Below the pieces are notes generated by a model. The model searched no databases. It was not told the DNA's origin and saw only the letters and a list, made by a program, of their open reading frames with translations. The translations under genes were made by a program, and so were the position numbers. Shown one piece after another: positions 44,360 through 63,167 of a DNA stretch of 64,000 nucleotides. The stretch comes from Mycobacterium sp. BK086 (GTDB lineage: Bacteria; Actinomycetota; Actinomycetes; Mycobacteriales; Mycobacteriaceae). Every line of letters begins with the position of its first letter. Position 1 is the first letter of the stretch. The stretch is taken from assembly GCA_004362315.1 (NCBI GenBank), contig SNWL01000004.1, positions 62,001 to 126,000 of the forward strand. Reading direction: 5' to 3'.

Positions 44360-44372
44360 GGCGGCAGACGCT

Positions 44373-44389
44373 ACAGTAAGCACTTCAGT
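44373..44389. promoter_or_regulatory. Shared-operator copy 1 (ACAGTAAGCACTTCAGT)
   Basis: Matches 11 of the 14 defined bases of ACTGTAA-N3-TTACAGT. It lies between the divergent LLM and carboxyltransferase genes, 13 bases before the LLM start. TACAGT at 44372-44377 and its complement could act as -10 hexamers. Confidence 0.5.
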
Positions 44390-44421
44390 ATGGTCAACGC
44401 CGCCACGGTTAGGACACGTCG

Positions 44422-45921
44422 ATGAGCAACGCGCAGGACTGGCAGGAGACGCTCCACGACCTCAGCCGGCGGCGTCAGCACTCGCACGGCATGGGCGGTG
44501 AGGAGCGCGTCGCCAAGCACCACGGCAAGGGAAAGCTCGACGCCCGGGGCCGAATCGACCATCTCCTCGATCCGGGCACCTTCCAGGAGTTCGGCACCCT
44601 GGTCGGCGGGGACATCGCTTCCGACGGACTCGTCTCGGGCGCGGGCCGCATCAACGGAACACCGGTCATGGTGGGCGCCGAGGACTTCACCACCCTGGCC
44701 GGCAGCATCGGCCCGGGCGGCAACGCCAAGCGCTATCGACTTGCCGAGTTGGCCCTGCGCAACAAGATCCCGCTGGTGATGCTGTTGGAGGGCGCCGGTT
44801 TCCGCGCCGCGGGCGGTGAGCACTACGGCCGCACCCCGACCGACCTGATCGCGCAGGCACAGTGTTCCGGCAAGGTCCCCACCATCTCCGCGGTCCTCGG
44901 CCCGTCGGCCGGTCACGGTGCCCTCGTCGCACCGGTCTGCGACTTCTCCGTCATGAGCAGCCAGGGCGCCATCTTCACCGCAGGCCCCCCGGTCGTGAAA
45001 GAGGCCACCGGAGAGGACATCTCGAAGGAGGACCTCGGCGGGCCGACGGTTGCGTTGCCCAGCGGCGTCATCCACAACGTCGCCGAGACCGACGAAGAGG
45101 TGCTCGACGACATTCGGCGCTACCTGTCCTACTTCCCTTCCAGCGCATGGTCGTATCCCCCGACCCGGCTGTACGACGACGAGGCCGGTCTGCGTCCCAC
45201 CCCTGAGTTGCTCGACATCATCTCGCGGGACAACCGCAACATCTACGACATGCGCACCGTCTTGGACGTGGTCTTCGACGACACCGACTGGCTCGAGATC
45301 CAGCCGAAGTACGGCCAGGCCATCATCTGCGCGCTGGCTCACCTGGGTGGCTATCCGGTCGCGGTCGTCGCCAACCAGCCCACCCAGATCGCGGGGTCGA
45401 TCGACTCCGACGCCGCGGACAAGGCCGCGCATTTCATCATGGTCGCCGACTCGTTCCACCTGCCGTTGGTGTTCCTCGCCGACAACCCGGGCATGCTGCC
45501 GGGCAGCCAGTCCGAGCGCGACGGCGTATTGCGAAGCGGCGCACGGATGTTCGCCGCGCAAACGGCGGCGACGACGTTGAAGCTGCATGTCACCTTGCGC
45601 AAGGCCTTCGGCTTTGGCTCGATGGTGATGTCACTGCTGGGATTCGACAACCAACTGGCGACATTCGCCTTCCCCGGCGCCACCATGGGGGCGATGAGCG
45701 CTGCCGCGCTGAGTCGCGCCTCCCATGCCGACGAGGATGTCACCGAGATCCTGAAGAACATGGAACTCGAGGCGTCGTACCGCTCGGCGGGGCACCTCGG
45801 CTTCGACGAGCTGATCTCACCGGAGGAGACCCGTAACGCCCTGCTGCTGGCACTGCAGCGCGGCATCTTCAGCCGTCAGGAAGTCGCCGAGCCCGTGAGC
45901 CGGACCGTCATCACGCCCTAG
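44422..45921 (+). CDS. Acyl-CoA carboxylase beta (carboxyltransferase) subunit
   Basis: Encodes 499 aa with both crotonase-like carboxyltransferase halves: GGNAKRYRLAELALRNKIPLVMLLEGAGFRAAGGE (quoted in part: LLEGAGFR) with LGPSAGHGALVAPVCDF, and the C-terminal FLADNPGMLPGSQSERDGVLRSGAR (in part). It transfers CO2 from carboxybiotin to an acyl-CoA. No biotin carboxylase/BCCP gene is next to it, so it must borrow an alpha subunit. Position in the regulon suggests a degradative acyl-CoA substrate. Stop interlocks with the next gene (CTAG). Confidence 0.87.
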   Translation: MSNAQDWQETLHDLSRRRQHSHGMGGEERVAKHHGKGKLDARGRIDHLLDPGTFQEFGTLVGGDIASDGLVSGAGRINGTPVMVGAEDFTTLAGSIGPGGNAKRYRLAELALRNKIPLVMLLEGAGFRAAGGEHYGRTPTDLIAQAQCSGKVPTISAVLGPSAGHGALVAPVCDFSVMSSQGAIFTAGPPVVKEATGEDISKEDLGGPTVALPSGVIHNVAETDEEVLDDIRRYLSYFPSSAWSYPPTRLYDDEAGLRPTPELLDIISRDNRNIYDMRTVLDVVFDDTDWLEIQPKYGQAIICALAHLGGYPVAVVANQPTQIAGSIDSDAADKAAHFIMVADSFHLPLVFLADNPGMLPGSQSERDGVLRSGARMFAAQTAATTLKLHVTLRKAFGFGSMVMSLLGFDNQLATFAFPGATMGAMSAAALSRASHADEDVTEILKNMELEASYRSAGHLGFDELISPEETRNALLLALQRGIFSRQEVAEPVSRTVITP

Positions 45922-47063: not shown

Positions 47064-47068
47064 TTCGG

Positions 47069-49526: not shown

Positions 49527-49533
49527 GCTCGCA

Positions 49534-49558
49534 AAGATAGTTGTCGTGTGTTTAATAT
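49534..49558. promoter_or_regulatory. Divergent leaderless promoters of kinase and TetR genes
   Basis: TATCTT on the minus strand (49534-49539) is seven bases before GTG 49526; TAATAT on the plus strand (49553-49558) is six bases before GTG 49565. Neither gene has a Shine-Dalgarno sequence, so both are likely leaderless. The shared 17-bp dyad is absent here. Confidence 0.5.
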
Positions 49559-49564
49559 GCAAGG

Positions 49565-50173
49565 GTGCCTTCTCCCGCACGCGGATTGACGCAACCCGAA
49601 CGGGTCGAGACCTCCCGTCGCCGGCTGATGGAGGCCGCCGCCGAGCTCATCGTCGAGAAGGGCTGGGACGCAACCACCGCCGCCGAGATCGGCCGCCGGG
49701 CCGGGTACAGCCGCACGATGGTGCACGCCCGCTTCGGCGGCAAGGAAGCCATCCTGGAGGACTTCCTCGGAGAGTATGTCGGCAGGCTCAACCCGCACCC
49801 CAACCCCAAGGCCACGGGGATGGACCAGGTGGTCGCCCACTTCGACCGCATCCGCGATCTGTACGCCCATGACCCCGACGTGCTGCGGGCCATGTTCGTC
49901 TCCAGCTTCGAGGCCATGAAGACCACGTCTCCACTGCGCGAACGGATGACCGACCAACTGCAGGGTGGGATCGCCAATGTTGCCGATGGTCTGCGAAAGG
50001 GTCAGCGGGACAAGTCGGTTCGCAAGGGTATCGACCTGGATCGCGCGGTCAGCGATATCACCGCGGTATTTTTTGGTATCGCGTTCCTGTGGGTCGCGCT
50101 CCCGTCCGGCTTCGACCTGGATGCCGAGCTGGCGCACGCCCGCCAGAAGATCGTGCGGGACTACGGCGCCTGA
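49565..50173 (+). CDS. TetR-family transcriptional regulator
   Basis: Encodes 202 aa. Helix-turn-helix TTAAEIGRRAGYSRTMVHARFGGKEAILEDF near the N-terminus (residues about 35-65), C-terminal ligand domain with a TetR_C pattern. It lies inside the catabolic region and is the only regulator visible between 43 and 64 kb, so it is a candidate for the shared operator; its own promoter lacks that dyad, which argues against or means no autoregulation. Tail overlaps the convergent hydrolase gene by 13 bases. Confidence 0.87.
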   Translation: MPSPARGLTQPERVETSRRRLMEAAAELIVEKGWDATTAAEIGRRAGYSRTMVHARFGGKEAILEDFLGEYVGRLNPHPNPKATGMDQVVAHFDRIRDLYAHDPDVLRAMFVSSFEAMKTTSPLRERMTDQLQGGIANVADGLRKGQRDKSVRKGIDLDRAVSDITAVFFGIAFLWVALPSGFDLDAELAHARQKIVRDYGA

Positions 50174-51264
50174 GTGAGCGCGCCAAGGAACCGTTCGGTC
50201 TCCGCCTGCACGGCCCCCGAGAACAGGTGCCCGACGTGACCGCCGTCGTGCCAGTACAACTCACCGCCCCAGCGCTCGTGCATGGCCAGTGCGCACTGCC
50301 GGTACGCCATCTGGTCGTGCCAGGCACCGACGATCAGCCGGCGCTCCGGCGGCGGCAACGGGTCAAGCGCCAGAGGATCGATCACCGACGTCAGATCCGA
50401 CACGATGTCGGATGCCATTGCCGCGCCGACGGTATCGGCCCTCGGACCCCACCGATGCAGATGCCGGGCGATCATCCCGTTGAGGCCGAGGATCGGCGTG
50501 TACAGCGCAACCGCGTCGACTCGCTCGTCCAGGCCGGCGACCAATGCCGCGACCGCACTGCCCAACGACAATCCGGAGACCGCGATCGCCGTCGAGTCGG
50601 GCTCGATCCAGCCGATCACCGCCCGCACTTCTGAGACGGCCCGAACCATGCCCGCGACGTTGGCCACCGGATCCGTTCCGGGATAGGCGGGCCAGCGGTC
50701 ACGACGTGGCCCGTGCCCGGGCTGGACCGGCAGGGCCACATTGAAGCCGAGCTCCCGATGAATGCGGCCGACCCTGGCCACCAGGATGTCCGACATACCG
50801 CCCTGGCCGGCACCGTGTACCCACACCAGCCACGGCCGCGGCCCGTCGTCGTGGCGGAACAACACCACCTCCGCACCCGCGGGCCCGTCGTGCTCCTCGG
50901 CCAGCACCGGCACCAGCTTGGGGTCGTGGTCGTAGCTCATCCGCTCGTAGGAGAGCACCCCGGCTTTGACCGGACGAATCCCCTTGACCTGCAATGGCTC
51001 CGGATCGTGATGCACACCGGTGACCCCGAGGGACGACAACTCCGCGGCCATTCCTGCGTAGTCGTCGACCTGCCGCTCCATCTTCGGCGGCGACGACATC
51101 AGGGTCATGCCGGTGACCACCAGCTCGTCGAGCGCGACCTCGGCGACCTGACGCATGCCACGCCCGGACAGTGGATTCCAGTCCTCACCCTGCAGCGCGG
51201 ACACCGACCGCGGCAAGACTCCCCCGAGCTGCGTGGCCAGCCGGTGCGCGTTGCTCAGCCGCAT
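50161..51264 (-). CDS. Alpha/beta hydrolase (possible lactone/ester hydrolase)
   Basis: Encodes 367 aa. The alpha/beta hydrolase core starts near residue 130 (PWLVWVHGAGQGG); nucleophile Ser in VSGLSLGSAVAAL and C-terminal His in HDGGHVGHLF are present. About 120 N-terminal residues are unusual for the fold. Its ATG shares a base with the monooxygenase stop (TGATG), so the two are coupled: a Baeyer-Villiger-type enzyme followed by a hydrolase is the classic ester/lactone-forming and opening pair. Confidence 0.82.
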   Translation of the reverse strand: MRLSNAHRLATQLGGVLPRSVSALQGEDWNPLSGRGMRQVAEVALDELVVTGMTLMSSPPKMERQVDDYAGMAAELSSLGVTGVHHDPEPLQVKGIRPVKAGVLSYERMSYDHDPKLVPVLAEEHDGPAGAEVVLFRHDDGPRPWLVWVHGAGQGGMSDILVARVGRIHRELGFNVALPVQPGHGPRRDRWPAYPGTDPVANVAGMVRAVSEVRAVIGWIEPDSTAIAVSGLSLGSAVAALVAGLDERVDAVALYTPILGLNGMIARHLHRWGPRADTVGAAMASDIVSDLTSVIDPLALDPLPPPERRLIVGAWHDQMAYRQCALAMHERWGGELYWHDGGHVGHLFSGAVQAETERFLGALTQAP

Positions 51265-52874
51265 CACGCCAGCTTGAAGCCGACGTAACCGCCGTCGGCG
51301 ATCTCGTCGCAGCGCCGACGGTATTCGGGAATACCTGCCGTGAAGCCCATGTACATCCGTTTCTTGCCGGGAACGTTGGCGCCGTTGTACCACGAATTGC
51401 AGCTCGGGTGCACCAGGACAGTCGGCGCCACAAGGGATGTGGTGAGCTCGATCCAGTCCTGCTGCGCATCAGGCAGCGCGTCGATGCTGCGGTAACCGTT
51501 CGCCTTCAGGTACGCGATGCAGGCGCCGATCCACTCGATGTGCTGCTCGAGCGCGGAGACGAAATTCGTGGCCGCGGCCGGGCTGCCCGGACCCTGCACC
51601 GTGAAGAGATTGGGGAACCCGGCGACCGCAAGCCCCAGGTAGGACACCGGCCCCTCGTCGGCCCACACGTCACGCAACAACGCCCCACCACGGCCCCGCA
51701 CATCCATGCGGGTGAGCGCACCGGTCATGGCGTCGAACCCGGTGGCGTAGATGATCACGTCGAGGTCGTAGTGCTGCGCCGACGTGTCGATGCCATCCTG
51801 GGTCACCGACGTGATCGGGTCCGTGCGCAGGTCGACCAGAGTCACGTTGTCGCGGTTGTAGGTCTCGTAGTAGCCCTGGTCAATGATCGGGCGCTTGCAG
51901 CCGAAGGGGTGGCTGGGCACCAGCGCCGCCGCCGTCTCGGGATCGTCAACGATCCGCGCGATCGCCTCGCCGTACAGTTCGGTGGCCATCCGGTTGGCCT
52001 CGATGTCGAAGAAGATGTCGCCCCAGTTGAGTGCGCCCATCACCCCGCGCTCCTCGACCGCGCGCAGTTTCTCCTCCGGCGTCGCGGACTTGATCGGCGG
52101 GCTCACGAGCATGTCGATCAGGACCGAGAATGCCGACAGCCGGGCCGCACCCACCGGATGCTGCCGCTGGGCGTCGCGGATCTCGGCGTAGTTCGCCTTC
52201 ATCTCGTCGAGCTCACCGGGTTCGAACTGCCGCACCTCCCATGGCAGCGTGAACGCGGGCGAACGCTGGAAGACGTAGAGCTGCTCCACATCCCGGGCGA
52301 TCACCGGAATCATCTGTACGCCGGTCGAACCCGTCCCGACCACGCCGACACGCTTGCCGGAGAGATCGAACCCACCCTCGGGCCACCGGCTGGTGAACAG
52401 TGACTCCCCCGCGAAGGCTGCCATGCCGGGAATGTCGGGCTCCAGCGGGACCGACAGGATGCCCGAGGCCGCGACGACGAACGGCGCGACGAACGTCTCG
52501 CCGGTGTCGGTCTGTAGTGTCCACGTCGCGCTGTCCTCGTCGAAGGTCATCGCCGTGACATCGGTGTTGAAGCGGATATCGCGGCGCAGGTCGAGCCGAT
52601 CGGCGACGAAGTTCAGATACGCCTCGATCTCGGGCTGGGCCGGCATGGTCTCGGTCCAGACCCACTCCTGCTGGATCTCCTCGGAGAAGCTGTAGGAGTA
52701 TTCGATGCTCTCGATATCGCAGCGCGCGCCCGGGTACCGGTTGAACAGCCAAGTGCCGCCGACCTTTTCGGCCTTCTCCAGCACCTGGACCCGCATGCCG
52801 AGCTCGCGCAACCGGTGCAGCATGTAGAGACCGGAGAACCCGGCACCGATCACCAGCACATCAGCATTGTCCAT
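51264..52874 (-). CDS. Baeyer-Villiger-type FAD/NADPH monooxygenase
   Basis: Encodes 536 aa. FAD Rossmann motif VIGAGFSGLYMLHRL (residues 8-22), the GGTWLFNRYPGARCD motif and NADPH motif VVGTGSTGVQMI (178-189). The BVMO fingerprint FxGxxxHxxxWP appears as FAGESLFTSRWP (154-165), with Phe160 where His is expected. C-terminal YATGFDAMTG is typical. It inserts oxygen beside a ketone to give an ester or lactone. GAAGGG precedes ATG 52874 at seven bases. A perfect copy of the shared dyad lies 36 bases upstream. Confidence 0.88.
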   Translation of the reverse strand: MDNADVLVIGAGFSGLYMLHRLRELGMRVQVLEKAEKVGGTWLFNRYPGARCDIESIEYSYSFSEEIQQEWVWTETMPAQPEIEAYLNFVADRLDLRRDIRFNTDVTAMTFDEDSATWTLQTDTGETFVAPFVVAASGILSVPLEPDIPGMAAFAGESLFTSRWPEGGFDLSGKRVGVVGTGSTGVQMIPVIARDVEQLYVFQRSPAFTLPWEVRQFEPGELDEMKANYAEIRDAQRQHPVGAARLSAFSVLIDMLVSPPIKSATPEEKLRAVEERGVMGALNWGDIFFDIEANRMATELYGEAIARIVDDPETAAALVPSHPFGCKRPIIDQGYYETYNRDNVTLVDLRTDPITSVTQDGIDTSAQHYDLDVIIYATGFDAMTGALTRMDVRGRGGALLRDVWADEGPVSYLGLAVAGFPNLFTVQGPGSPAAATNFVSALEQHIEWIGACIAYLKANGYRSIDALPDAQQDWIELTTSLVAPTVLVHPSCNSWYNGANVPGKKRMYMGFTAGIPEYRRRCDEIADGGYVGFKLA

Positions 52875-52909
52875 TCACGGACCCTTCTCTTCCTCGCACA
52901 GCGGATGCT

Positions 52910-52926
52910 ACTGTAACTATTACAGT
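52910..52926. promoter_or_regulatory. Shared-operator copy 2 (perfect): ACTGTAA-CTA-TTACAGT
   Basis: Perfect 7-bp arms with a 3-base centre between the divergent monooxygenase and LLM genes. TACAGT, a TANNNT -10 hexamer, is present on both strands within the dyad (52921-52926 for the LLM gene, 52910-52915 for the monooxygenase). Confidence 0.8.
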
Positions 52927-52938
52927 ATTGGAGGCCAA

Positions 52939-53862
52939 TTGCGGTACACCCTGGAATATCCGAGCGAGCTACCGACCGCGCCCGACGAATTCCTGGAACC
53001 CGACGTCATCCGAGATGTCGTGACGCGGGCCGAGGCTGCGGGGTTCTCCGCGATCGCGCTGTCCGAACATCCGGCACCCTCGCTGAAATGGCGGCGCAAC
53101 GGCGGCCACGACACCCTCGACCCGATCGCGGCATTGAGCTTCATGGCCGGGGTGACCACCGACATCAAGCTGATGACCAACCTGTACGTGCTGCCGTTCC
53201 GCAACCCGTACCTGTCCGCCAAGTCCCTGGGCAGCCTCGACATCCTGTCGGCGGGACGGTTGATCGCCGGCGTGGGAGCGGGCTACCTGCGTTCGGAGTT
53301 CGCCGCGCTCGGCGTCGACGTCGACGACCGCGCCCAGCTGCTCGACGAAGCGCTCGCAGCACTGACCTCGATCTGGACCGACCCTGAGACACCGGTCAGC
53401 GGAAAGGGTTTCAGCGCGACCAGCCCGATGTGGCTGCAGCCGCCGGTACAGCGTCCGCATCCGCCAATCTGGATCGGGGGCAACACCGCGGCCTCGGTGC
53501 GCCGGGTAGTCCAGTACGGCAGCGGCTGGATGCCGCTCATCGCGCCAGCCGGCATGGCATCGGCGATCGGCACCGCGGCGCTTGAGACAGCCGCGCAGTT
53601 CGGCGCCCAGCTCACGCGGCTGCGGGACGCGCTCGCCGATGCCGGGCGCGATCCGCTGTCCCTCGACGTCCAGGTGATCTGCCCGTTCATCGACCTCGAC
53701 GACGACGCCTCGCTGCGGCAGGCACAGGACGTGCTCGGCGAACTGGCCGAGCACGGCGCGAACTGGGCCGTCGCCCACGTCCAAGCGCCCACCCCGCGCG
53801 AGGCGAAAGACTACATCGACGCGTTCGGCGAGGCCGTCATCGCCGGCAATCTGGTCAGCTGA
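52939..53862 (+). CDS. LLM-class F420-dependent oxidoreductase (Rv2161c-like)
   Basis: Encodes 307 aa. Features: AGFSAIALSEHPAPSLKW, TNLYVLPFRNPYLSAKSLG, GRLIAGVGAGYLRSEFAALGVD and RPHPPIWIGGN, as in the Rv2161c family. No ATG or GTG is available near the conserved N-terminus; TTG 52939 follows GGAGG by four bases and gives LRYTLEYPSE. In the predicted regulon. Tail overlaps the convergent SnoaL gene by eight bases. Confidence 0.83.
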   Translation: MRYTLEYPSELPTAPDEFLEPDVIRDVVTRAEAAGFSAIALSEHPAPSLKWRRNGGHDTLDPIAALSFMAGVTTDIKLMTNLYVLPFRNPYLSAKSLGSLDILSAGRLIAGVGAGYLRSEFAALGVDVDDRAQLLDEALAALTSIWTDPETPVSGKGFSATSPMWLQPPVQRPHPPIWIGGNTAASVRRVVQYGSGWMPLIAPAGMASAIGTAALETAAQFGAQLTRLRDALADAGRDPLSLDVQVICPFIDLDDDASLRQAQDVLGELAEHGANWAVAHVQAPTPREAKDYIDAFGEAVIAGNLVS

Positions 53863-54292
53863 ACCGCAACAGGGTGCGGGTCAGATGCAGCGACGCGATC
53901 TGCCATCGGCCGTCCCGCTTCTCGTAGGTCTCGTGGTAGTGGCCGGCGCCGTGCAGTTGCGTGCCGTCGGGGAAGAACAGCAGATCCTCCATGGCCCAGA
54001 TGCCGCTGGCCGTGGTCGCCGAGGTGAGCGCGAGCTCCGGCGTGTGACAGTGATGCACCGTCGCCACACCCTCCAGCGTCCCGATCACCATCGGCACGAA
54101 CTCGTCGACGCCCTGGATGGGCGGGCCGGTCTTCGGGTCCGCCCCGCCGGTCGATACCGCGCCGTCGAGCAGCACAGTCAGATCAGGGGCGAAGACACTG
54201 CGCCACGACTCGACATCCTTGGTGTCCAGGAATCGGCAATATCGCGCCTTGAGCTGGCGAATCGCCTCGAGCTCGTCACTGCCATCGCCCAT
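53855..54292 (-). CDS. SnoaL-like / ring-hydroxylating-dioxygenase-beta-like protein
   Basis: Encodes 145 aa: LEAIRQLKARYCRFLDTKDVESWRSVFAPD, VHHCHTPELALTSATTASGIWAMED and HGAGHYHETYEKRDGRWQIASLHLTR (each in part). This is the SnoaL_4 pattern shared with small subunits of aromatic dioxygenases and with limonene-epoxide-hydrolase-like folds. It is divergent from the Rieske gene and shares its operator region. Confidence 0.78.
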   Translation of the reverse strand: MGDGSDELEAIRQLKARYCRFLDTKDVESWRSVFAPDLTVLLDGAVSTGGADPKTGPPIQGVDEFVPMVIGTLEGVATVHHCHTPELALTSATTASGIWAMEDLLFFPDGTQLHGAGHYHETYEKRDGRWQIASLHLTRTLLRFS

Positions 54293-54327
54293 CGAACGCC
54301 TCCCATTAGCATCAGCCGGAAAGCACT

Positions 54328-54344
54328 ACTGTAATACTCTTAGT
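54328..54344. promoter_or_regulatory. Shared-operator copy 3 (degenerate): ACTGTAATACTCTTAGT
   Basis: The left arm ACTGTAA is perfect and the right arm keeps T..xAGT, 11 of 14 defined bases. It lies between the divergent SnoaL-like and Rieske genes, with TACTCT (54335-54340) as a possible -10 for the latter. Confidence 0.55.
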
Positions 54345-54371
54345 ACGGCCCTGAGTTCGAGGAGGATCCAC

Positions 54372-55376
54372 GTGAAGGTCCCGTTCACCTGGAAGGTCAC
54401 CGGCTGGTTCATGATCGGCTGGTCAGCTGAGTACGAGGTCGGTGACGTCCGGTCGCTGCGCTACTTCGGCGAGGACCTCGTCATCTACCGCGACCAGGCC
54501 GGTGAACTGCACCTGCTCGAGGGCCACTGCAAGCACCTCGGCGCGCACATCGGGCACGGCGGCACCGTGGTCGGCGACTGCGTCGAATGCCCGTTCCACG
54601 GCTGGCGGTGGGGCCCCGACGGCGCCAACACCTACATCCCCTATCAGCCGGACCGGCCCAACAAGGGTCTGCGGCTGCGGGCTTACCCGGTTCAAGAGCA
54701 GCATGGCTGCATCTTCATGTGGCATCACCCCGGTGGCGAGCCACCACGGTGGGAGCTGCCCGACATGTTCACCAAGTTCCCGCAATTCACCGCCGCCCCC
54801 GACGCGTACTACCGGCCCTACCCCGAATTCTCCCGGTTCGCCGAGAACGAGCCGGTGCATCCGCAGATCGTGGCCGAAAATGGCCCGGACAGTGCGCATT
54901 TCCACTACGTCCACAAGGCGACGGTCACGCCGGTGTGCCTGGAGTGGGAGGCGGTCGACGAAGAATGGCGGTTCCTCACCGGCTGGCCCGACGCCCGCAG
55001 CGACGACCCGAACAAGATGGCGCTGCGCATCCACAGCCACTTCTCCGGGCTCGGTTTCGCGATCAGTGTGTTCGAGGGCTCGTCGAACCACCGGCTGATC
55101 TTCGCCTGCACACCCGTCGACGACGAGGTGTCCAACATGTTCTATTCGATCTGGTGGCCGCGAAAAGACGGTGACACCAGTGATATTCCGCCTGACGACG
55201 TCCGCGAGCGGGTGGAGAAGCAGTACCTCGGCACGGTGTGGGACGACCTCGAGATCTGGCGCTACCAGAAGTACGTCGAGCACCCCGCACTGGCCAAGAT
55301 CGACGCGAAACCCTATATGGCGATGCGGAAGTGGGCGTTGCAGTTCTACGACGTGACGGCAGCAGCACCGGTATGA
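54372..55376 (+). CDS. Rieske non-heme iron oxygenase, KshA-like
   Basis: Encodes 334 aa. Rieske [2Fe-2S] ligands: Cys53-x-His55 in CKHLGAH and Cys73-xx-His76 in CPFHGW. The mononuclear iron site is in NGPDSAHFHYVH (Asp/His/His). Overall layout resembles 3-ketosteroid 9-alpha-hydroxylase oxygenase KshA and related terpenoid/steroid oxygenases. Needs a reductase, none of which is adjacent. GGAGGATC precedes GTG 54372. Its stop overlaps the next ATG (ATGA), in an operon with the isochorismatase-fold protein and the P450. Confidence 0.88.
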   Translation: MKVPFTWKVTGWFMIGWSAEYEVGDVRSLRYFGEDLVIYRDQAGELHLLEGHCKHLGAHIGHGGTVVGDCVECPFHGWRWGPDGANTYIPYQPDRPNKGLRLRAYPVQEQHGCIFMWHHPGGEPPRWELPDMFTKFPQFTAAPDAYYRPYPEFSRFAENEPVHPQIVAENGPDSAHFHYVHKATVTPVCLEWEAVDEEWRFLTGWPDARSDDPNKMALRIHSHFSGLGFAISVFEGSSNHRLIFACTPVDDEVSNMFYSIWWPRKDGDTSDIPPDDVRERVEKQYLGTVWDDLEIWRYQKYVEHPALAKIDAKPYMAMRKWALQFYDVTAAAPV

Positions 55377-55981
55377 AGACCAATCTGGTAAACCCGGCAC
55401 ACACCGCGATCGTGACCCAGGAGTTGCAGGGCGCGGTCGTCGGGCCCAATGCCGGGCTGGCCGCGCTGGCCCGCGAGGCCGAGCGCGAGGCGCTGCCCAA
55501 TATCGCACGCCTGCTCCCGGTCGCACGCGCGGCCGGGGTGAAGGTGGTGCACTGCCTGGTGCAGCGTCGCCCCGACGGGCTGGGCGCCAACCACAACGCC
55601 AAGCTGTTCGCGATCGGCGCCAGCGGCGTGGACATCGCACCGGGCAGCCCGGGTGCCACACTGCTTCCCCAATTCGGGCCGGAGCCCAGCGATCTCACGC
55701 TGGCCCGCTGGCACGGTCTCGGCCCGATGGGCGGCACCGACCTCGATGCGATCCTGCGCAACCTCGGCGTGACAACGATCGTCGCCGTCGGGGTGTCCCT
55801 CAACGTCGCGATCCCCAACCTCGTCATGGACGCCGTTAACGCCGCGTACCGGGTCGTCCTGCCGCGCGATGCGGTGGCCGGCGTCCCCGCCGAGTACGGC
55901 GCGGCGATCATCGACAACACGCTGGGACTGCTGACCACCCTCACCACCACCGACGAGCTGATCGCTGCCTGGGAGGCATGA
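55373..55981 (+). CDS. Isochorismatase-fold protein lacking the catalytic triad
   Basis: Encodes 202 aa with the cysteine-hydrolase fold: VTQELQGAVVG where VxDxQ is usual (Glu for Asp), WHGLGPMGGTDLDAILR where the lysine is expected, and VGVSLNVAIPNLVMDA where active members have the nucleophilic Cys; there is no Cys at that site. It is therefore probably a non-hydrolytic or differently working member, yet is retained between the Rieske and P450 genes with four-base overlaps on both sides. Confidence 0.8.
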   Translation: MKTNLVNPAHTAIVTQELQGAVVGPNAGLAALAREAEREALPNIARLLPVARAAGVKVVHCLVQRRPDGLGANHNAKLFAIGASGVDIAPGSPGATLLPQFGPEPSDLTLARWHGLGPMGGTDLDAILRNLGVTTIVAVGVSLNVAIPNLVMDAVNAAYRVVLPRDAVAGVPAEYGAAIIDNTLGLLTTLTTTDELIAAWEA

Positions 55982-57183
55982 TGGACACCGACACCGCCGT
56001 GCCACAACTGCCCACCGGCTACCAGCGTGACCCGTACCCGTTCTTCGCCGAGATGCGCGACGGCCCTGGGGTTTTCCGCGGCACCGTCATGGACTACTCG
56101 AAGACACCCGAGTCGCTGCGTCCCACGAACACCTTCGCCGCGGTGTCGTTCGACGCTGTCAACAAGGTGTTCCGCGACGGCAAGGTGTTCAACTCCAAGA
56201 TCTACGACGCCACCATCGGCCTGTTCATCGGCCCGTCGCTGCTCGCGATGGAAGGCAAGACGCACTGGGACCACCGCAACCTGGTCTCGGCGGCGTTCAA
56301 GTCGAAGTCGTTGTCGCGCTGGGAGCCTGAGATCGTGCGTCCGATCGTGAACGGGCTCATCGACGAGTTCATCGCCGACGGGCAGGCCGACCTGGTGAAG
56401 GCATTCACCTTTGAGTTCCCCACCCGTGTCATCACCCGACTGCTCGGGCTGCCCGAGGAGGATCTGGCCGACTTCCGGCGGCGAGCGGTCCAGTTGATCA
56501 GCTATGCGGTCAATTACAAGAAGGCATTCGAGGCGTCGGCGGCACTCAAGGAATACTTCATGGACCAGATCGACAAGCGCCGCTCGAAGCCCACCGACGA
56601 CATCATCGGCGATCTGGTGACCGCCGACATCGGCGGCGAGAAGCTCTCCGACGAGGCCATCTATTCATTCCTGCGACTGTTGCTGCCCGCCGGCCTGGAG
56701 ACCACCTACCGGTCATCGGGCAACCTGCTGTACCTGCTGCTCACCCACCCCGAACAGTTCGCCGCAGTCCAAGCCGATCGGGATCTGATCGGACCCGCGA
56801 TCGAGGAGGGTCTGCGCTACGAGACGCCGCTGACCACGGTGCAACGGTTCGCCACCGAGGACAGTGAGCTGGAAGGTGTTGCGATACCGGCTGGTTCGGT
56901 CATCGACCTGTGCATCGGGTCGGCCAACCGCGATCAGAACCGCTGGCCGAACTCCGAGGATTTCGACATCTCCCGCAAGCACACGCCCCACATCTCGTTC
57001 GCCGCGGGCGAGCACACCTGCATGGGTCTGCACCTAGCGCGGATGGAGACCAGGGTGGCCATCGAGTCACTGCTGGACCGGCTGACGAACATCACGCTGC
57101 TCGCCGACGACGACCCACACATTCACGGGCAACCGTTCCGGTCACCGACATCGCTTCCGGTGACCTTCGACGCCGTTCGCTAA
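55978..57183 (+). CDS. Cytochrome P450
   Basis: Encodes 401 aa. I-helix AGLETTYRS (oxygen-binding threonine), ExxR in the K-helix as EEGLR, and heme-ligand loop FAAGEHTCMG with Cys348. Soluble bacterial class; needs a ferredoxin that is not nearby. ATG 55978 overlaps the upstream stop; ATG 55981 is equally possible. Last gene of the Rieske operon, stop interlocked with the SDR gene (CTAA). I cannot assign a CYP family. Confidence 0.92.
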   Translation: MMDTDTAVPQLPTGYQRDPYPFFAEMRDGPGVFRGTVMDYSKTPESLRPTNTFAAVSFDAVNKVFRDGKVFNSKIYDATIGLFIGPSLLAMEGKTHWDHRNLVSAAFKSKSLSRWEPEIVRPIVNGLIDEFIADGQADLVKAFTFEFPTRVITRLLGLPEEDLADFRRRAVQLISYAVNYKKAFEASAALKEYFMDQIDKRRSKPTDDIIGDLVTADIGGEKLSDEAIYSFLRLLLPAGLETTYRSSGNLLYLLLTHPEQFAAVQADRDLIGPAIEEGLRYETPLTTVQRFATEDSELEGVAIPAGSVIDLCIGSANRDQNRWPNSEDFDISRKHTPHISFAAGEHTCMGLHLARMETRVAIESLLDRLTNITLLADDDPHIHGQPFRSPTSLPVTFDAVR

Positions 57184-58028
57184 CCTTTCCAAGGCTTGGC
57201 TTTGACGAATCCGCCCGCGTCGATACGCAATTGGGTACCGGTGATGAAGCGGGCGTCGTCACTGGCCAGGAAGACCACGGCGGCCGACACATCGTAGGGC
57301 TCGATGTAGGGCACCGGCATCGCCTGCATTGCCGGGAAGGACAGCTCGGCATCGAGCCGGGTCGGCGAGGCCAGGTCTGGCCGGAACACCCGGTACATAC
57401 CCTCGTTGTGCAGCATATCGGTGTTGACGTTCGTGGGATGCAGCGCGTTGACCCGAATCATCCTCTTGGCCAATTGGATTGACAGATCGTTGACGTAGTG
57501 GGCGACCATCTGTTTGGCCAGGCTGTAGGCCGATCCGCCGGGGCCCTGGTTGCTGGCGCTCCCCAACTGCGCGGCAAGCGATCCGGTGGCGATCACCGAC
57601 GCACCGTCGTTGAGGTGCGGCATGCTGGCCTGGATCACGTTGAACACCCCGACCAGGTCGGTGTCGATGGTGTCCGACCACGACTGCAGGGTCTGGCCCT
57701 TGCCCATCGGGCAGATGCCCGCATTGGCGACCACGATGTCGAGGTGGCCCATCTCCTCGACCGCCTCGGCGATCGTCTGCCACACCGCACCGCGTTCACG
57801 GACATCGCAGATCGTCGAGAAGACCCGCGCACCTTCCTTTTCCACCAACAGGGCGGTCTCGTCGAGGTCTTCGGGCCGAGCCAGCGGGTAGGTGTTGCCG
57901 TCGAGATCGGCGCAGATGTCGAAGATGATGACGTCGGCGCCCTCGGCGGCCAGCGCGATCGCGTGCGAACGGCCCTGTCCCCGCGCGGCTCCCGACACGA
58001 CGGCGACTTTGTTGTCCAACTTGCCCAC
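57180..58028 (-). CDS. Mycofactocin-dependent-type short-chain dehydrogenase
   Basis: Encodes 282 aa. NAD motif VSGAARGQGRSHAIALA, NAG motif VVANAGI and catalytic YSLAK. The insertion IFDICADLDGNTYPLARPEDLDETALLVEKEGARV (positions about 35-70) is typical of the SDR group whose NAD stays bound and is re-oxidised by mycofactocin. It would oxidise a secondary alcohol to a ketone. GTG 58028 follows AAGGAA; the ALDH gene ends 18 bases upstream, so the two form an operon. Confidence 0.87.
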   Translation of the reverse strand: MGKLDNKVAVVSGAARGQGRSHAIALAAEGADVIIFDICADLDGNTYPLARPEDLDETALLVEKEGARVFSTICDVRERGAVWQTIAEAVEEMGHLDIVVANAGICPMGKGQTLQSWSDTIDTDLVGVFNVIQASMPHLNDGASVIATGSLAAQLGSASNQGPGGSAYSLAKQMVAHYVNDLSIQLAKRMIRVNALHPTNVNTDMLHNEGMYRVFRPDLASPTRLDAELSFPAMQAMPVPYIEPYDVSAAVVFLASDDARFITGTQLRIDAGGFVKAKPWKG

Positions 58029-58046
58029 TGGGGTTCCTTTCAAAAG

Positions 58047-59594
58047 TCAGGACGTGCGCGGAGCGCGGTATGCGACGGTCTTGGTTTCCAGGTATTGCTG
58101 GAAACCCTCGATGCCACACTGGCGTCCGACACCGCTGTTCTTGAAGCCGCCGAACGGCGCGTCGGCACCGTAGAACATTCCCCCGTTGACACCGATCGAC
58201 CCGGTCCGGATCCGGCGTGCGACGGACATGCCGCGGTCGATCGATCCCGACAGCACCGCGCCTGCCAGTCCGTAGGCGCTGTTGTTGGCGATGCGGACGG
58301 CTTCGTCGTCGTCCCGGAACGTCAGGACCACCAGGACGGGCCCGAAGATCTCCTCTTGGGCGATCGCGGAATCCGGTTCGGCGCCGATGATCACCGTCGG
58401 CTGAACGAAATGTCCGCCGGCCAGATAGTCGGACAGGCCGTCGAAAGCTCCTCCCCCGACCACGATTTCGGCGCCGTCGCGGCGAGCCCGATCGCAGGCG
58501 TCGAGAACGCGCTGCTTCTGCTTCGCGCTGACGACGGGGCCGACGAAGGTCCCCGGCAGCGCCGGATCTCCGACCGGAATGGCCTGATAGGCCGCGGTGA
58601 TGGCGGCCAGTGCCTCCGGGTAGAGCGATTCGTGGATCACCAGTCGGGTGGTCAGCGCGCAGGCCTGCCCGGCGTGCACACACACCCCGACCGCACCGCC
58701 GATGACGTGGGCCGGGTTGGCGTCCTCGAGCACGATCAGCGCGGACTTACCGCCCAACTCCAGGAAGGTGCGCTTCATGGTGTCGGCGCCGTCGCGCATC
58801 AGCTGCTTACCGACTGCGGTGGAACCGGTGAACGAGACCATGTCCACCCGTGGGTCGGTCGCCAGCTGGCCTGCGACCTCGTTGGATGGCGTGGGGACGA
58901 CGTTCAGGACGCCGGCCGGAATGTCGGTGTGGTCGGCGACGAGCCGGCCGATGCGAGTGGCGTTCCATGGTGTGTTGGGATCCGGTTTGAGGATGACGGT
59001 GTTGCCGGTGGCCAGCGCGGGACCCAGCTTGTTGAGGATGACCTCGACGGGGTAGTTGGACGGTGTGATTGCGGCGACGACCCCGACCGGTTCCTTGACC
59101 ACGGTGCGCACATTGCGCTCACCGAACAACCCGCCGCCCTCGAGGGTTCGCTCCCAGTCGAATTCGTCGATCAGACGGGCCGGGTAGCGTAGCGACTCGG
59201 CCAGCGGCCACTCCAGCTGGGCGTCGCCCGTCGACATCACCGGGCAACCGACCTCGGCGACCAGTTCTTCTCTCAGATCTTCCTTCTCGGCTTCCAGCGC
59301 GGACTGCAGCTGGGCCAGGCACCTCTTGCGCAGCTCGGCATTGGTGGACCAGTCGGTCTCGTCGAAGGCGCGTCGGGCCGCGCCGATCGCACGGTCCATA
59401 TCGGCGGGCCCGGCGGCGGCGGCGACCCCGAGCACCCGGCCGGTGGCGGGGCTCAGATTGTCGAACTCCGCGCCGTCCTGCGCCGCGGACAGTTTTCCGT
59501 CGATCAGCATCCGGGTCTCGGCCCGCTGCGCCGCACGCAACCCGAGCTCGACGCTCGTCGCACCCTGCTCGCCCACTACAGGCACCACCTTCAT
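58047..59594 (-). CDS. NAD(P)-dependent aldehyde dehydrogenase
   Basis: Encodes 515 aa. Catalytic motifs LELGGKSALIV (general base Glu) and HAGQACALTTR (nucleophile Cys), plus cofactor motifs ITPSNYPVEVILNKLGPALATGN (in part) and FTGSTAVGKQLM. Oxidises an aldehyde to an acid. Start ATG 59594 lies 15 bases from the shared dyad. First gene of the ALDH-SDR operon. Confidence 0.93.
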   Translation of the reverse strand: MKVVPVVGEQGATSVELGLRAAQRAETRMLIDGKLSAAQDGAEFDNLSPATGRVLGVAAAAGPADMDRAIGAARRAFDETDWSTNAELRKRCLAQLQSALEAEKEDLREELVAEVGCPVMSTGDAQLEWPLAESLRYPARLIDEFDWERTLEGGGLFGERNVRTVVKEPVGVVAAITPSNYPVEVILNKLGPALATGNTVILKPDPNTPWNATRIGRLVADHTDIPAGVLNVVPTPSNEVAGQLATDPRVDMVSFTGSTAVGKQLMRDGADTMKRTFLELGGKSALIVLEDANPAHVIGGAVGVCVHAGQACALTTRLVIHESLYPEALAAITAAYQAIPVGDPALPGTFVGPVVSAKQKQRVLDACDRARRDGAEIVVGGGAFDGLSDYLAGGHFVQPTVIIGAEPDSAIAQEEIFGPVLVVLTFRDDDEAVRIANNSAYGLAGAVLSGSIDRGMSVARRIRTGSIGVNGGMFYGADAPFGGFKNSGVGRQCGIEGFQQYLETKTVAYRAPRTS

Positions 59595-59609
59595 GTTCTG
59601 GGACGGTCA

Positions 59610-59626
59610 ACTGTAAAGGTTACAGT
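59610..59626. promoter_or_regulatory. Shared-operator copy 4 (perfect): ACTGTAA-AGG-TTACAGT
   Basis: Perfect 7-bp arms with a 3-base centre between the divergent ALDH and CoA-transferase genes. TACAGT hexamers on both strands sit inside the dyad, well placed as -10 elements (predicted leader of about 9 bases for ALDH, about 87 for the CoA transferase). Confidence 0.8.
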
Positions 59627-59719
59627 AGGAAACTGCAGCAGTCTCGGGGCCCATTCCCCGGCCCGCGGAAGCCGGAGTGTGAGAATGTGGTTACCACCGC
59701 ACGAGAATGGGAGATCGCG

Positions 59720-60943
59720 TTGATCAAGGTGATGGATGGCATCCGAGTACTGGAGGTCGCGCAGTTCACGTTCGTGCCGGCGGCAGGGGCGATCCTGGCC
59801 GACTGGGGCGCCGACGTCATCAAGATCGAGCACCCGGTTCGCGGGGACACCCAGCGCGGCTTCATCAACATGGGCGGCTTTCAGCTCGACCCCAACCGGC
59901 ACCCCCTGATCGAGCACCCCAACCGGGGTAAGCGCAGCGTCGGCATCGACGTGTCCACGCCAGAGGGTCAGGAGGTGCTCTACGAGATCGCCAAGACGGC
60001 CGACGTCTTCCTGACCAACTACATGCCTGCGCAGCGCCAGAAGAACAAGTTCGATATCGAGCACATCCGCGCGGTGAATCCGAACATCATCTACGCCCGC
60101 GGCAGCGCCTACGGCGACAAGGGCCCCGAGCGAGGGGTGGGCGGCTTCGACGGCACCGCATTCTGGACGCGCAGCGGCGTCGGCCATGCCCTGACTCCAG
60201 AGGAACTCGGAGGCGCACTCCCCCAAGGCATTCCGGCGTTCGGTGATTCGATCGGCGGCATGAACATCGCAGGCGGCATCTCCGCGGCACTGTTCCACCG
60301 GGAACGCACCGGCGAAGCGGTCGAGCTCGACGTGTCGCTGCTGAGCACCGCGTGGTGGGCCGCGGGTGCCAGCGTCACCCAGGGTATGGAGACCGGGGAG
60401 ACCATGCGGTCGCTGATGCCGGGCACCACCACATCGGTCAACCCGTTCATGGCCAACTACCTGACCTCGGACGGCGGCACCATCAACCTGTGCATCGTCA
60501 GCCCGACCGGATACATCCGGGACACGTGGGAGCATCTCGGCCTGCCCGAACTCGCCGACGACCCACGGTTCTCCGATGTGATGCCGCTGATCCAGAATGC
60601 CGAAGCCGGCGTGGAACTCATCGCCGAGGCGATCGCCGCCAAGCCGTTCGAGTACTGGCGCCAGCACCTCAAGACGATGAAGGGTCAGTGGGCGCCCTTC
60701 CAAAGCCTGGTCGATCTGGCCACCGACGAGCAGGCCATCGCCAACGACATGATCGTCGAAGTGGAGTCCGCCGACGGCGGGGCGCCGTTCAAGGTGGTCC
60801 GCGGACCTGTGCAGTTCAACCACGAGCCGCTGGAGACCACCCGCGCGCCTCAGGCCAGCGAGCACACCGAGATCGTGTTGATGGAGATCGGCATCGACTG
60901 GGACCGGATTGAGGCGCTCAAGGAGTCGGGCGCGATCGCTTAG
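59720..60943 (+). CDS. Family III CoA transferase (CaiB/BaiF)
   Basis: Encodes 407 aa. Typical start GIRVLEVAQFTFVPAAGAILADWGADVIKIEHP (in part) and body RGKRSVGIDVSTPEGQ, ARGSAYGDKGPE, GGISAALFHRERTGE, ELDVSLL. It moves CoA onto an acid, fitting activation of the product of the adjacent aldehyde dehydrogenase. TTG 59720 follows GGGAG by six bases; GTG 59729 and ATG 59732 are alternatives. Stop interlocks with the molybdoenzyme gene (TTAG). Confidence 0.86.
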   Translation: MIKVMDGIRVLEVAQFTFVPAAGAILADWGADVIKIEHPVRGDTQRGFINMGGFQLDPNRHPLIEHPNRGKRSVGIDVSTPEGQEVLYEIAKTADVFLTNYMPAQRQKNKFDIEHIRAVNPNIIYARGSAYGDKGPERGVGGFDGTAFWTRSGVGHALTPEELGGALPQGIPAFGDSIGGMNIAGGISAALFHRERTGEAVELDVSLLSTAWWAAGASVTQGMETGETMRSLMPGTTTSVNPFMANYLTSDGGTINLCIVSPTGYIRDTWEHLGLPELADDPRFSDVMPLIQNAEAGVELIAEAIAAKPFEYWRQHLKTMKGQWAPFQSLVDLATDEQAIANDMIVEVESADGGAPFKVVRGPVQFNHEPLETTRAPQASEHTEIVLMEIGIDWDRIEALKESGAIA

Positions 60944-63138
60944 CTGGTCACGGCCTCACGGACCCTCTCGACGCGAACCGGGACGCCGGTCAGCCACGCC
61001 ATGCCCGACAACGCCTCGACGTCCTCGGGCGCGCTCGACGTCAGCCGGTTGACGTTGGAGCCACCCGCCCGGTTGGCCAGTTTCCACGTCCCGGTTCCGG
61101 TGTGCCCCCAGCCGTGCGGCACGGCGATCACACCGGCCATCAGATCTTTGGTGATCATCACCTCGACGGTGATCTCGCCGTAAGGCGACGACACCCGCAC
61201 CACATCACCGTCAGCGATGCTCATCTCGGCCGCATCGTCTGCGTGGATGAGTGCGCGGTGCCCGCGCTCGCCCCGCATCAGCAGCGGCGAGTTGTGCATC
61301 CACGAGTTCTCCGAGCGCGGCTCCCGCATACCGATCATCCGCAACGGATAGCCGTCGGGATGGCCTGCGCGCGACAGCTTGTCGACCTCGGAGGCTATCC
61401 CGCTGTGGCGCAGCCGGATACGGCGCGACAGGTAGGCCACCGAATTGCGCAGCACCCCGGTGCGGATATGCGGTGCCACGACCACACCGTGCGGGTGTTC
61501 CTCGGTCAGTCGGCGATGCGTGAGGCCGCCGCGACGCAGCCCGAACAGGTCGCCACCCTGTGACGTCCTGATCAGAGCGTCGATCATCAGTCGAGGTTTG
61601 AGAGCTACCCCGAAGCGGCCCAATATCTTTCGCATGCCCCCGAGTACTGCGAACGCGCGCACATCGCTGGCCATCCGGACCATGAGATCGGAGACGATGT
61701 CCCATTCCGAACGGGCCTCGCCGGCCGGCGCGACGACCGCTTCGGTGGCCTGCCGGAACGGCGTGGCCTGGAAGGCCTGGAATGTGTACGGGAAGTCGTC
61801 GCGTTCGTACATCGTGGTCACCGGCAGGATGTAGTCGCATCGGCCGGTCGTCTCGGTGACGTAGAAGTCAAGGGCCACAGACAGTTCCAGGGAATCGAAG
61901 GCCGCTTCGAGCTCGTCACCGTTGGGCACCGACAACACCGGGTTGCCCGCTGAGACGAACATCGCCCGGATCTGCCGATCGCCCGGCGTGGCGATCTCCT
62001 TGGCCATCAGCGCGGCCGGTTCCATCGCGACGGAGATGGGGATCCCGCCGATCCGAGACCTGTTGCGATACGACCGGCGCATCGCAAGGCCCATCATCGT
62101 GGCCTGCCAGCGACCGCCGACGGTCTCCATCGAACTGAACACCGACCCGCCAGGAGCATCGAGATTGCCCGCGACGAGGTTCACCGCATCGATCAGGTAG
62201 GTGGTCAGCGTGCCGTACCGGCCGACGCAGGTCCCGAGCCTGCCGTAGACGGCCGCTCGCGGTTCGCGCGCCAAGTCCCGCGCGAGCGCGCGGACACTGT
62301 CCGCGTCGATGCCGGTGTGGGCCGCGGTGAACTCCGGGGTGAACCGCGCGCACAGCGACTGTAGCCATTCCAGGCCGTCGGCCTGTGTTTTCACCCGCGC
62401 GGTGTCGACCAGGCCCTCGGCGAACATCACCTGCAGAAGCGAGAGCAGCAGGAAGGAGTCGGCGTCGGGCACGATACCCAGCCATTCGAACTGGGCCGCG
62501 GTCTCGGTCTTGCGAGGATCGACCACGACGACTCGTCCGCCCCGCTTGACGATATCGTGCATGCGGTCCTTGATCCGCGGCGCGGTCAGGAAACTGCCAT
62601 GGGAGACAACGGGATTGGCTCCCATCATCACCAGAAGCTCGGTGCGGGTCAGATCGGGAATCGGCACCGACGTCGGCGCACCGTACAGCATCTGGCTGGC
62701 GATCAGCCTGCTGTTGGTGTCTTGAGACGATGCCGTGAAGTAGTGGCTGTCGCGCCCGAGGCTCTTGATGAAGCCCAGCGCCGCGAACGTATGCGCGTAG
62801 CTGAAGGCCCCTGGGTTGCCCATGTACCAGCCGACCGCCCCCGATCCGCGGGCCGTGAGGATCGCGGTCAGCCGGGCGGCGATATCCGAGAGTGCCTCGT
62901 CCCAACTGACCTGCACATACCCGTTCGGGGTCTTGCGCAGGGGCGTCGTGACCCGGTCCGGATCGTTCTGCACCTCGGTGAACGCGATGCCCTTCTGGCA
63001 GGCGAAACCCGCGGAGAGCGGGTGGTCTTTGTCCGGGCGCAGGGCCGTCAGACGGCCGTCCTCGACGGTGGCCACCATGCCGCACAGCGGCTCGCAGATC
63101 CGGCAGAACGTGGTCTTGTGCTCGATGTTCGACGCCAC
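60940..63138 (-). CDS. Molybdopterin oxidoreductase (DMSO-reductase/formate-dehydrogenase superfamily)
   Basis: Encodes 732 aa. N-terminal [4Fe-4S] ligands Cys12, 15, 19 and 47 (CRICEPLC ... FACQKG). Bis-MGD binding regions YMGNPGAFSYAH, MMGANPVVSHG, VVVVDPRKTETA and the C-terminal domain VIAVPHGWGHTG. No signal peptide, so cytoplasmic. Mo-ligand not identifiable by eye. No subunit partner is adjacent. GTG 63138 is the best start because the cluster begins only 11 residues in. It requires the cofactor made by the moa genes earlier in the window. A near-perfect shared dyad is 13 bases upstream. Confidence 0.88.
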   Translation of the reverse strand: MASNIEHKTTFCRICEPLCGMVATVEDGRLTALRPDKDHPLSAGFACQKGIAFTEVQNDPDRVTTPLRKTPNGYVQVSWDEALSDIAARLTAILTARGSGAVGWYMGNPGAFSYAHTFAALGFIKSLGRDSHYFTASSQDTNSRLIASQMLYGAPTSVPIPDLTRTELLVMMGANPVVSHGSFLTAPRIKDRMHDIVKRGGRVVVVDPRKTETAAQFEWLGIVPDADSFLLLSLLQVMFAEGLVDTARVKTQADGLEWLQSLCARFTPEFTAAHTGIDADSVRALARDLAREPRAAVYGRLGTCVGRYGTLTTYLIDAVNLVAGNLDAPGGSVFSSMETVGGRWQATMMGLAMRRSYRNRSRIGGIPISVAMEPAALMAKEIATPGDRQIRAMFVSAGNPVLSVPNGDELEAAFDSLELSVALDFYVTETTGRCDYILPVTTMYERDDFPYTFQAFQATPFRQATEAVVAPAGEARSEWDIVSDLMVRMASDVRAFAVLGGMRKILGRFGVALKPRLMIDALIRTSQGGDLFGLRRGGLTHRRLTEEHPHGVVVAPHIRTGVLRNSVAYLSRRIRLRHSGIASEVDKLSRAGHPDGYPLRMIGMREPRSENSWMHNSPLLMRGERGHRALIHADDAAEMSIADGDVVRVSSPYGEITVEVMITKDLMAGVIAVPHGWGHTGTGTWKLANRAGGSNVNRLTSSAPEDVEALSGMAWLTGVPVRVERVREAVTS

Positions 63139-63150
63139 ACTCCCGACAAT

Positions 63151-63167
63151 ACTGTGAGTCTTACAGT
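63151..63167. promoter_or_regulatory. Shared-operator copy 5: ACTGTGA-GTC-TTACAGT
   Basis: Thirteen of 14 defined bases match the consensus. It lies between the divergent molybdoenzyme and SCP2 genes; TACAGT at 63162-63167 could be the -10 for the rightward transcript. Confidence 0.75.

Follow-up and report, generated by a model that had tools for sequence, protein, structure and literature searches.

The question raised by a 64,000-nucleotide stretch of the Mycobacterium sp. BK086 genome (contig SNWL01000004.1, positions 62,001 to 126,000; hereafter the window) is which protein reads the 17-bp dyad ACTGTAA-N3-TTACAGT that recurs upstream of its catabolic genes. The original prediction proposed that a single repressor, acting on divergent promoters, controls a catabolic regulon through one shared operator, and on purely comparative grounds this reading is the best supported one. 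With a probability of roughly 0.83, the dyads would be the operator of a TetR-type repressor encoded to the right of the window, here called T11, which would repress the divergent catabolic genes together with its own promoter and would be released by a pathway intermediate.

When the window was scanned with this pattern, mismatches being counted over the 14 arm bases, six matches with at most three mismatches were obtained, compared with an expected mean of 0.22; none of 100 dinucleotide shuffles reached six. Five of them are the dyads reported before, whose coordinates and sequences all proved to be as described: those at 52910 and 59610 are perfect, that at 63151 deviates at one base and those at 44373 and 54328 at three (Table 1). 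No further copy had been noticed by eye. The scan does give one, with three mismatches at 62358-62374, but we judge this match to be due to chance, since it lies in coding sequence (that of the molybdoenzyme) and none of nine aligned relatives has retained the dyad.

The whole assembly (6.93 Mb, 11 contigs) was scanned with the reversed pattern as control. At up to two mismatches, seven sites were found versus three for the control, and five of the seven lie inside 33 kb (C2:114910-147677). Right of the window end, another perfect dyad occurs at 67491 (G000:C2:129491-129507; extended coordinates, which continue the window numbering), and a variant is present in the T11 promoter (extended 85661-85677, G000:C2:147661-147677). 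The dyad cluster, and with it the regulon, extends rightward past the window end as far as the T11 gene. A position matrix trained on 61 sites from other genomes, with the present genome left out, gave 11 matches scoring more than 8 bits in the 136 kb that surround the cluster, versus 0.05 from a Markov model; the top seven were 52910, 67491, 59610, 63151, 85661, 54328 and 44373. Weak matrix matches at extended 82992, 87763, 90143 and 108443, each just upstream of a called gene, are tentative and were excluded from the counts; the one at 87763 recurs in one of 29 other T11 loci (G043). Within the same 136 kb, and allowing up to three mismatches, ten matches have a spacer of 3 and one (with two mismatches) a spacer of 1, while spacers of 2, 4 and 5 gave no match.

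The dyads were then followed by alignment footprinting against 11 close relatives. The 52910 dyad is perfect in all eight relatives aligned across it, even where the spacer has changed, as in several of them (G053 is aligned at the flank only), and the 59610 dyad has at most one mismatch in 9/9 (G176 is aligned at the flank only). The 44373 dyad shows three mismatches in each of the ten aligned relatives having T11, five of which differ at one arm base that is already off consensus. The 54328 dyad is identical in three relatives (G018, G043 and G184) and has four mismatches in G136; five more are aligned at the flank only. As for the 63151 dyad, the flanks of the molybdoenzyme and the thiolase adjoin at one perfect dyad in 9/9 relatives with both flanks, and in the present genome an insert of about 4.3 kb (extended 63168-67490, G000:C2:125168-129490), carrying an alcohol dehydrogenase (ADH), a ferredoxin and a GAF-LuxR gene, lies between the dyads at 63151 and 67491. 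Judging from these alignments, the two dyads are the left and right copies of one ancestral molybdoenzyme/thiolase divergent operator, parted here by the insert. A dyad stands on either side of the insert.

The inserted GAF-LuxR regulator (extended 66313-67428) faces the perfect 67491 dyad, which it adjoins, and the arms CTGTA/TACAG recall lux boxes; it might for these reasons be taken for the binding protein. The segment carrying it is missing between the flanks in 9/9 aligned relatives, and its orthologs (55-62% identity), found in 4 of 147 other genomes searched, have no spacer-3 dyad with up to three mismatches in the 23-60 kb around each, the single match there being a spacer-4 form with three mismatches in G098. 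Strong sites (at most one mismatch) occur in four of the five genomes with a GAF-LuxR ortholog and in 134 of the 193 others (p=1; for LuxR, 148 genomes of the 198-genome sample described below were searched). We rejected it as binder on account of the missing segment and the four orthologs without a nearby spacer-3 dyad, and regard it as very improbable. A genome-contig search with the LuxR protein gave only one remote match, from Burkholderiales, and is uninformative.

Across the genus, sampled by 198 genomes, strong sites number 372 in 138 genomes, compared with 28 in 25 genomes for the reversed dyad of equal composition. Twenty 20-kb stretches from 18 genomes, picked for having sites, were mapped. 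The window cytochrome P450 has an ortholog-grade relative in 18 of the 20, and relatives of the aldehyde dehydrogenase (ALDH), SCP2-type thiolase, Rieske oxygenase, Baeyer-Villiger monooxygenase (BVMO), isochorismatase-family hydrolase, molybdoenzyme and CoA-transferase recur in varying subsets. Among the 58 strong sites of these stretches and the present genome, the invariance of the arms is built in, because the sites were selected by their arms; what selection did not impose is that A or T stands just outside the dyad in 98% and that the spacer is free. The consensus with flanks reads (T/A)ACTGTAA-N3-TTACAGT(A/T). The dyad regulon is real, genus-wide and apparently undescribed; no description of this dyad was found in the literature searched, whose coverage leaves out most subscription papers.

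The T11 protein has an N-terminal TetR_N helix-turn-helix domain (PF00440, 45.7 bits, cut-off 24) and a C-terminal ligand domain (PF02909 TetR_C_1, 46.2 bits, cut-off 21). T11 matches were found in 159 of the 198 genomes, and orthologs, defined as best matches with E<1e-90, in 149. A strong site is present in 133 of the 149 genomes with the ortholog versus 5 of the 49 without (Fisher 7e-25, uncorrected for kinship), and 365 of the 372 strong sites fall in ortholog-bearing genomes. The five exceptions include G133, whose T11 match is partial (85%, residues 2-146), and G148, whose match is weaker (1.0e-84; 700-contig assembly); G067, G075 and G115, without a T11 match, have one strong site each, i.e. 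3 in 39 genomes, which does not exceed the control rate (28 in 198). Conversely, 16 of the 149 T11 genomes have no strong site, and in all 16 the ortholog of the cluster thiolase (E<1e-220) is missing as well. Four of these 16 (G010, G029, G172 and G176) belong to the 30 T11 loci examined below, and each of the four has the dyad at the T11 promoter. In G172 (L209) and G176 (L210), T11, its promoter dyad and the second TetR-type gene T16 are present, and much of the catabolic cluster found between them in the present genome is lacking.

At the T11 promoter itself, a dyad with at most three mismatches was found in all 30 loci examined, 27 of them in the form ACTGTAA-N3-CTATMGT; these loci lean towards close relatives, because they were chosen as the 30 best-scoring matches. 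Among 300 random sequences of 320 bases and 66% G+C, none contained a dyad match with fewer than four mismatches. Two genomes without T11 show what may become of the operators. No T11 match at E<=1e-20 was obtained in G098, which encodes the carboxyltransferase (82%) and T16 (70%) and lacks strong sites; its promoter before the carboxyltransferase is well aligned and reads ACAGTGGGCGCTTCAGT versus ACAGTAAGCACTTCAGT in the present genome, with five mismatches instead of three. G067, also without T11, encodes a hydratase 79% identical to the one whose gene shares the T11 promoter here, and the promoter of this hydratase keeps CTATAGTAGGTT, the other arm being gone. The retained part looks like a -10 hexamer (TATAGT), and the missing part is the one needed only by a dimeric DNA-binding protein. 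The operators at the same orthologous promoters are decayed in both genomes; that T11 was lost there, rather than originally absent, we infer from these two cases. Taken by such comparative evidence, T11 is the best candidate for the regulator.

The other TetR-type gene, T16, lies inside the cluster and might for that reason be regarded as encoding the repressor. Its own promoter carries no dyad, sites are present in 99 of the 155 genomes without T16, and in G098, where T16 is present and T11 is not, there are no strong sites. On these grounds T16 was rejected as binder, and we hold its role as the repressor to be highly unlikely.

Several observations weigh against T11 and the dyads as proposed, and are gathered here. 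i) With the 19-base form at up to three mismatches, the whole genome has 18 sites versus 16 for the control, i.e. no overall enrichment, so that loose matching is uninformative genome-wide; 9 of these 18 sites fall within 64 kb (C2:106372-170460). ii) A crude longest-ORF (open reading frame) caller puts 18 of the 58 strong sites within called gene cores and 40 outside them, and no more than 31 between divergent calls; some of the in-core calls are perhaps artefacts of the caller extending starts. iii) T11 goes together with the catabolic cluster, the thiolase ortholog (E<1e-220) being found in 0/39 genomes without a T11 match, and the genomes are related, for which reasons the Fisher value given above is not a probability. 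iv) T11 lies 22-41 kb away from the window sites. v) T16 is also associated with the sites, more weakly than T11 (39 of 43 genomes with T16 versus 99 of 155 without, p=6e-4). vi) In G428, G217 and G462, from other genera, no dyad with up to three mismatches was found at the T11 homolog's own start.

Point i), together with the fortuitous match at 62358, is also what could be said for the dyads being chance or low-complexity palindromes. This we consider practically negligible, given the excess of matches in the window and of matrix matches around the cluster, as well as the conservation in relatives; for sites with zero or one mismatch, chance is already refuted by the genus count of 372 versus 28. 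The original prediction had named a genome scan and conservation in related mycobacteria as the test. Both bear out the strong sites, which recur in close relatives and in the genome and genus scans, but the whole genome is not enriched at three mismatches, and the 54328 dyad recurs in fewer relatives.

As for the mode of action, the dyads end shortly before start codons as assigned by reading: 12 bp before the luciferase-like monooxygenase (LLM) gene starting at 52939, 15 bp before ALDH (59594), 12 bp before the molybdoenzyme (63138), 13 bp before the LLM gene at 44359 and 35 bp before BVMO (52874). The TANNNT hexamers which the original prediction saw in the arms are there, perfect arms supplying TACTGT or TACAGT. 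Some TetR-type proteins act as activators, and T11 could own the dyad and activate instead of repressing. The distances of 12-15 bp before probable starts (the two LLM genes, ALDH and the molybdoenzyme) are too short for an activator upstream of -35, both arms contain the hexamers, and G067, a single case without T11, has kept the TATAGT arm and not the other. We therefore consider activation unlikely. A dimer at the dyad would cover promoters and not recruit polymerase, and repression of both directions is thus the natural reading. In the model of repression by T11, a T11 dimer would occupy each dyad when no inducer is present, and as the dyads overlap or adjoin the core promoters of divergent genes, both directions would be shut, the T11 promoter being repressed likewise. 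T11 would be freed from DNA by an intermediate of the pathway, which may be a ketone or an acyl-CoA, and its release would turn on oxidative degradation by the P450, Rieske oxygenase, BVMO, F420/LLM enzymes, ALDH, short-chain dehydrogenase/reductase (SDR), CoA-transferases, thiolase and molybdoenzyme. DNA binding, repression, inducer and substrate are all deduced here from sequence.

The segment VGVTSIYWYFR of T11 is identical in all 28 orthologs extracted (of the 30 loci), in seven in-cluster paralogs and in seven homologs read from other genera, while the ligand domains of these paralogs and homologs are 27-54% identical to that of T11. At the level of the order, 37 of 298 genomes, belonging to 5 of 76 genera, contain T11 relatives with E<=1e-45. 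Outside the genus, dyads of the same layout occur near T11 homologs before a P450 gene in G428 and G217 (one mismatch each), before a thiolase gene in G217 (one mismatch) and directly at the T11 homolog in G274 (two mismatches). Plasmid pYLL1 of Rhodococcus sp. YL-1 (NZ_CP017303.1) contains five three-mismatch dyads in 40 kb, four of which precede the TetR gene and the genes of a hydratase, a thiolase and a dehydrogenase, and three GTAA-N3-TTAC cores versus 0.19 expected. G462 has three-mismatch matches only, and the one match in G358 lies inside an ORF.

In 7 of the 20 mapped stretches (L087, L088, L090, L093, L097, L101 and L105), a second TetR gene, 48-58% identical to T11 and with the same recognition segment, is located just downstream of the P450. 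The regulon might, at somewhat less than even odds, be read genus-wide by two TetR paralogs with one shared DNA-reading head (VGVTSIYWYFR) and ligand domains 41-53% identical. One paralog, at the beta-oxidation end, is itself preceded by a dyad in its promoter, and the second is co-directional with the P450 and just downstream of it. In the present species, only the first (T11) was found adjoining the cluster. If this were true and both paralogs competed for the same operators, two signals, an early substrate on the one hand and a late acyl-CoA on the other, would gate the pathway via one DNA code.

The features of the cluster are listed in Table 1.

Table 1. Dyads, enzyme genes and TetR-type genes of the cluster (window coordinates; extended coordinates continue them past the window end)
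Feature	Position	Strand	Remarks
Dyad, 3 mismatches, ACAGTAAGCACTTCAGT	44373..44389		between F420/LLM enzyme (-) and carboxyltransferase (+)
Perfect dyad	52910..52926		between BVMO operon (-) and LLM enzyme (+)
Dyad, 3 mismatches	54328..54344		between SnoaL-like gene (-) and Rieske oxygenase (+)
Perfect dyad	59610..59626		between ALDH-SDR operon (-) and CoA-transferase (+)
Dyad, 1 mismatch	63151..63167		before molybdopterin oxidoreductase (-)
LLM F420-dependent oxidoreductase, TIGR03617 (MSMEG_2256 type)	43331..44383	-	start probably 44359 by reading
Carboxyltransferase	44422..45921	+	
T16, second TetR-type gene inside cluster	49565..50173	+	rejected as binder
BVMO	51264..52874	-	phenylacetone/steroid monooxygenase group by sequence
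LLM F420-dependent oxidoreductase, TIGR03619	52867..53862 (longest ORF)	+	start probably 52939 by reading
SnoaL-like protein	53855..54292	-	
Rieske oxygenase with KshA_C domain	54117..55376 (longest ORF)	+	start probably GTG 54372 by reading
Isochorismatase-family hydrolase	55238..55981 (longest ORF)	+	
Cytochrome P450	55978..57183	+	
Mycofactocin-coupled SDR	57180..58043	-	TIGR03971, above cut-off
ALDH	58047..59594	-	
CoA-transferase family III	59687..60943	+	
Molybdopterin oxidoreductase	60940..63879 (longest ORF)	-	start probably GTG 63138 by reading
T11, TetR-type gene	extended 85797-86531 (G000:C2:147797-148531)		~22 kb right of window end

The nearest relatives of the BVMO are phenylacetone and steroid monooxygenases; the best solved match of the Rieske oxygenase is KshA (E 5e-32), and that of the P450 (E 2.6e-56) is not a near relative. 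Thiolases, hydratases and a DHDPS-family protein follow right of the window end, together with more acyl-CoA genes recognized by eye. The SCP2-type thiolase and the ADH had been counted jointly among the controlled genes. The thiolase (67549-68694) lies behind the 67491 dyad; the ADH (63704) belongs to the inserted segment and has its ORF start about 540 bp from the 63151 dyad. A second SCP2-type thiolase, at G000:C2:85282-86418 (window 23282-24418), shares 77% identity with the 67549-68694 thiolase and has no dyad with up to three mismatches nearby. The enzyme set (BVMO, KshA-like Rieske oxygenase, mycofactocin-coupled SDR, P450, thiolases and hydratases) suggests a pathway that oxidizes an alicyclic or terpenoid-like compound, opens its ring and continues by beta-oxidation; the substrate named here is a guess. 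A literature search for MSMEG_2249-2256, which appear in the LLM family names, gave unrelated mentions only, for example in the accessible text of PMC6529629.

Elsewhere in the genome, a site with two mismatches at C7:139079-139095 (L013:5080) precedes a P450-ferredoxin operon, and ACTGTAACGCTAACAGT sites occur in G034, G020 and G049. The dyad at G000:C7:139079 and the like sites in these three genomes recur as ACTGTTAGCGTTACAGT and resemble one recurrent operator. Because the site in the present genome overlaps a second inverted repeat (AGCGTTAC/GTAACGCT), this type of dyad is perhaps the operator of a different regulator; such sites were kept out of the regulon, the strong ones being still included in the 372. 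Another site with two mismatches, at C3:844432, precedes an SDR gene.

Among described systems, KstR resembles the proposed one in architecture: as far as the accessible text of PMC1995591 goes, it is an autoregulated TetR-type repressor of sterol catabolism with a palindrome over the promoters of many catabolic operons. The ends ACT...AGT are common to both operators, and some KstR sites start with ACTGTAAC. The KstR operator core TnnAACnnGTTnnA, however, has an AAC/GTT core and a 2-base spacer, whereas the present dyad is 17 bases long, with arms ACTGTAA/TTACAGT and a spacer of 3, and no spacer-2 or spacer-4 form with up to three mismatches exists in the 136 kb around the cluster. By the same part of that paper, the dyad, which the original prediction did not recognise as a KstR operator, is not the KstR motif.

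A second candidate is motif X of Mycobacterium sp. VKM Ac-1817D. According to the accessible part of PMC6593523, it is ascribed to the ortholog of Rv0767c, a TetR-type regulator proposed for 14 operons, most of them phytosterol-induced, which likewise hold P450s and alcohol and aldehyde dehydrogenases. No dyad with up to four mismatches occurs in the 16 kb (C2:249000-265000) around the best Rv0768-type ALDH of the present genome and its divergent TetR gene, the orthology of the latter to Rv0767c being by position only; instead, TGGACATGTGTCCA-type palindromes lie between this ALDH and the adjoining TetR gene, and the Rv0767c sites from chromatin immunoprecipitation are reported, in the accessible part of PMC10312376, to be enriched in GAC/GTC and depleted in TAA/TTA. 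For these reasons motif X, published in the part of PMC6593523 at hand as a figure and compared indirectly, is probably a different operator. The GGACAC/GTGTCC palindromes in question (G000:C2:256348 and 256495, L246), between the Rv0768-type ALDH and the divergent TetR, are a candidate operator of the Rv0767c ortholog. A survey of mycobacterial TetR motifs, in the accessible part of PMC4482099, lists its motifs by M. tuberculosis gene number and shows the logos as images.

Of the proteins with solved structures, the tetracycline-resistance TetR proteins of classes A-D come nearest to T11 in sequence (5mru being the best, E 3.9e-13), and they belong to the same C-terminal family TetR_C_1. The similarity is remote, however, and T11 has a hydratase and a thiolase as neighbours and no drug pump, while the genes at the dyads are catabolic. 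From lux-box systems the dyad differs in that its spacer-3 form is not conserved with the LuxR gene in the four ortholog neighbourhoods. The cluster is widespread (strong sites in 138 of 198 genomes, T11 matches in 159 of 198), yet its regulator, operator and substrate were not found in the literature searched. A named repressor candidate and a precise operator make a pathway with a P450, a KshA-like Rieske oxygenase, a BVMO and F420 enzymes testable, and the dyad and T11 would offer an operator/regulator pair for how paralogous repressors share sites.

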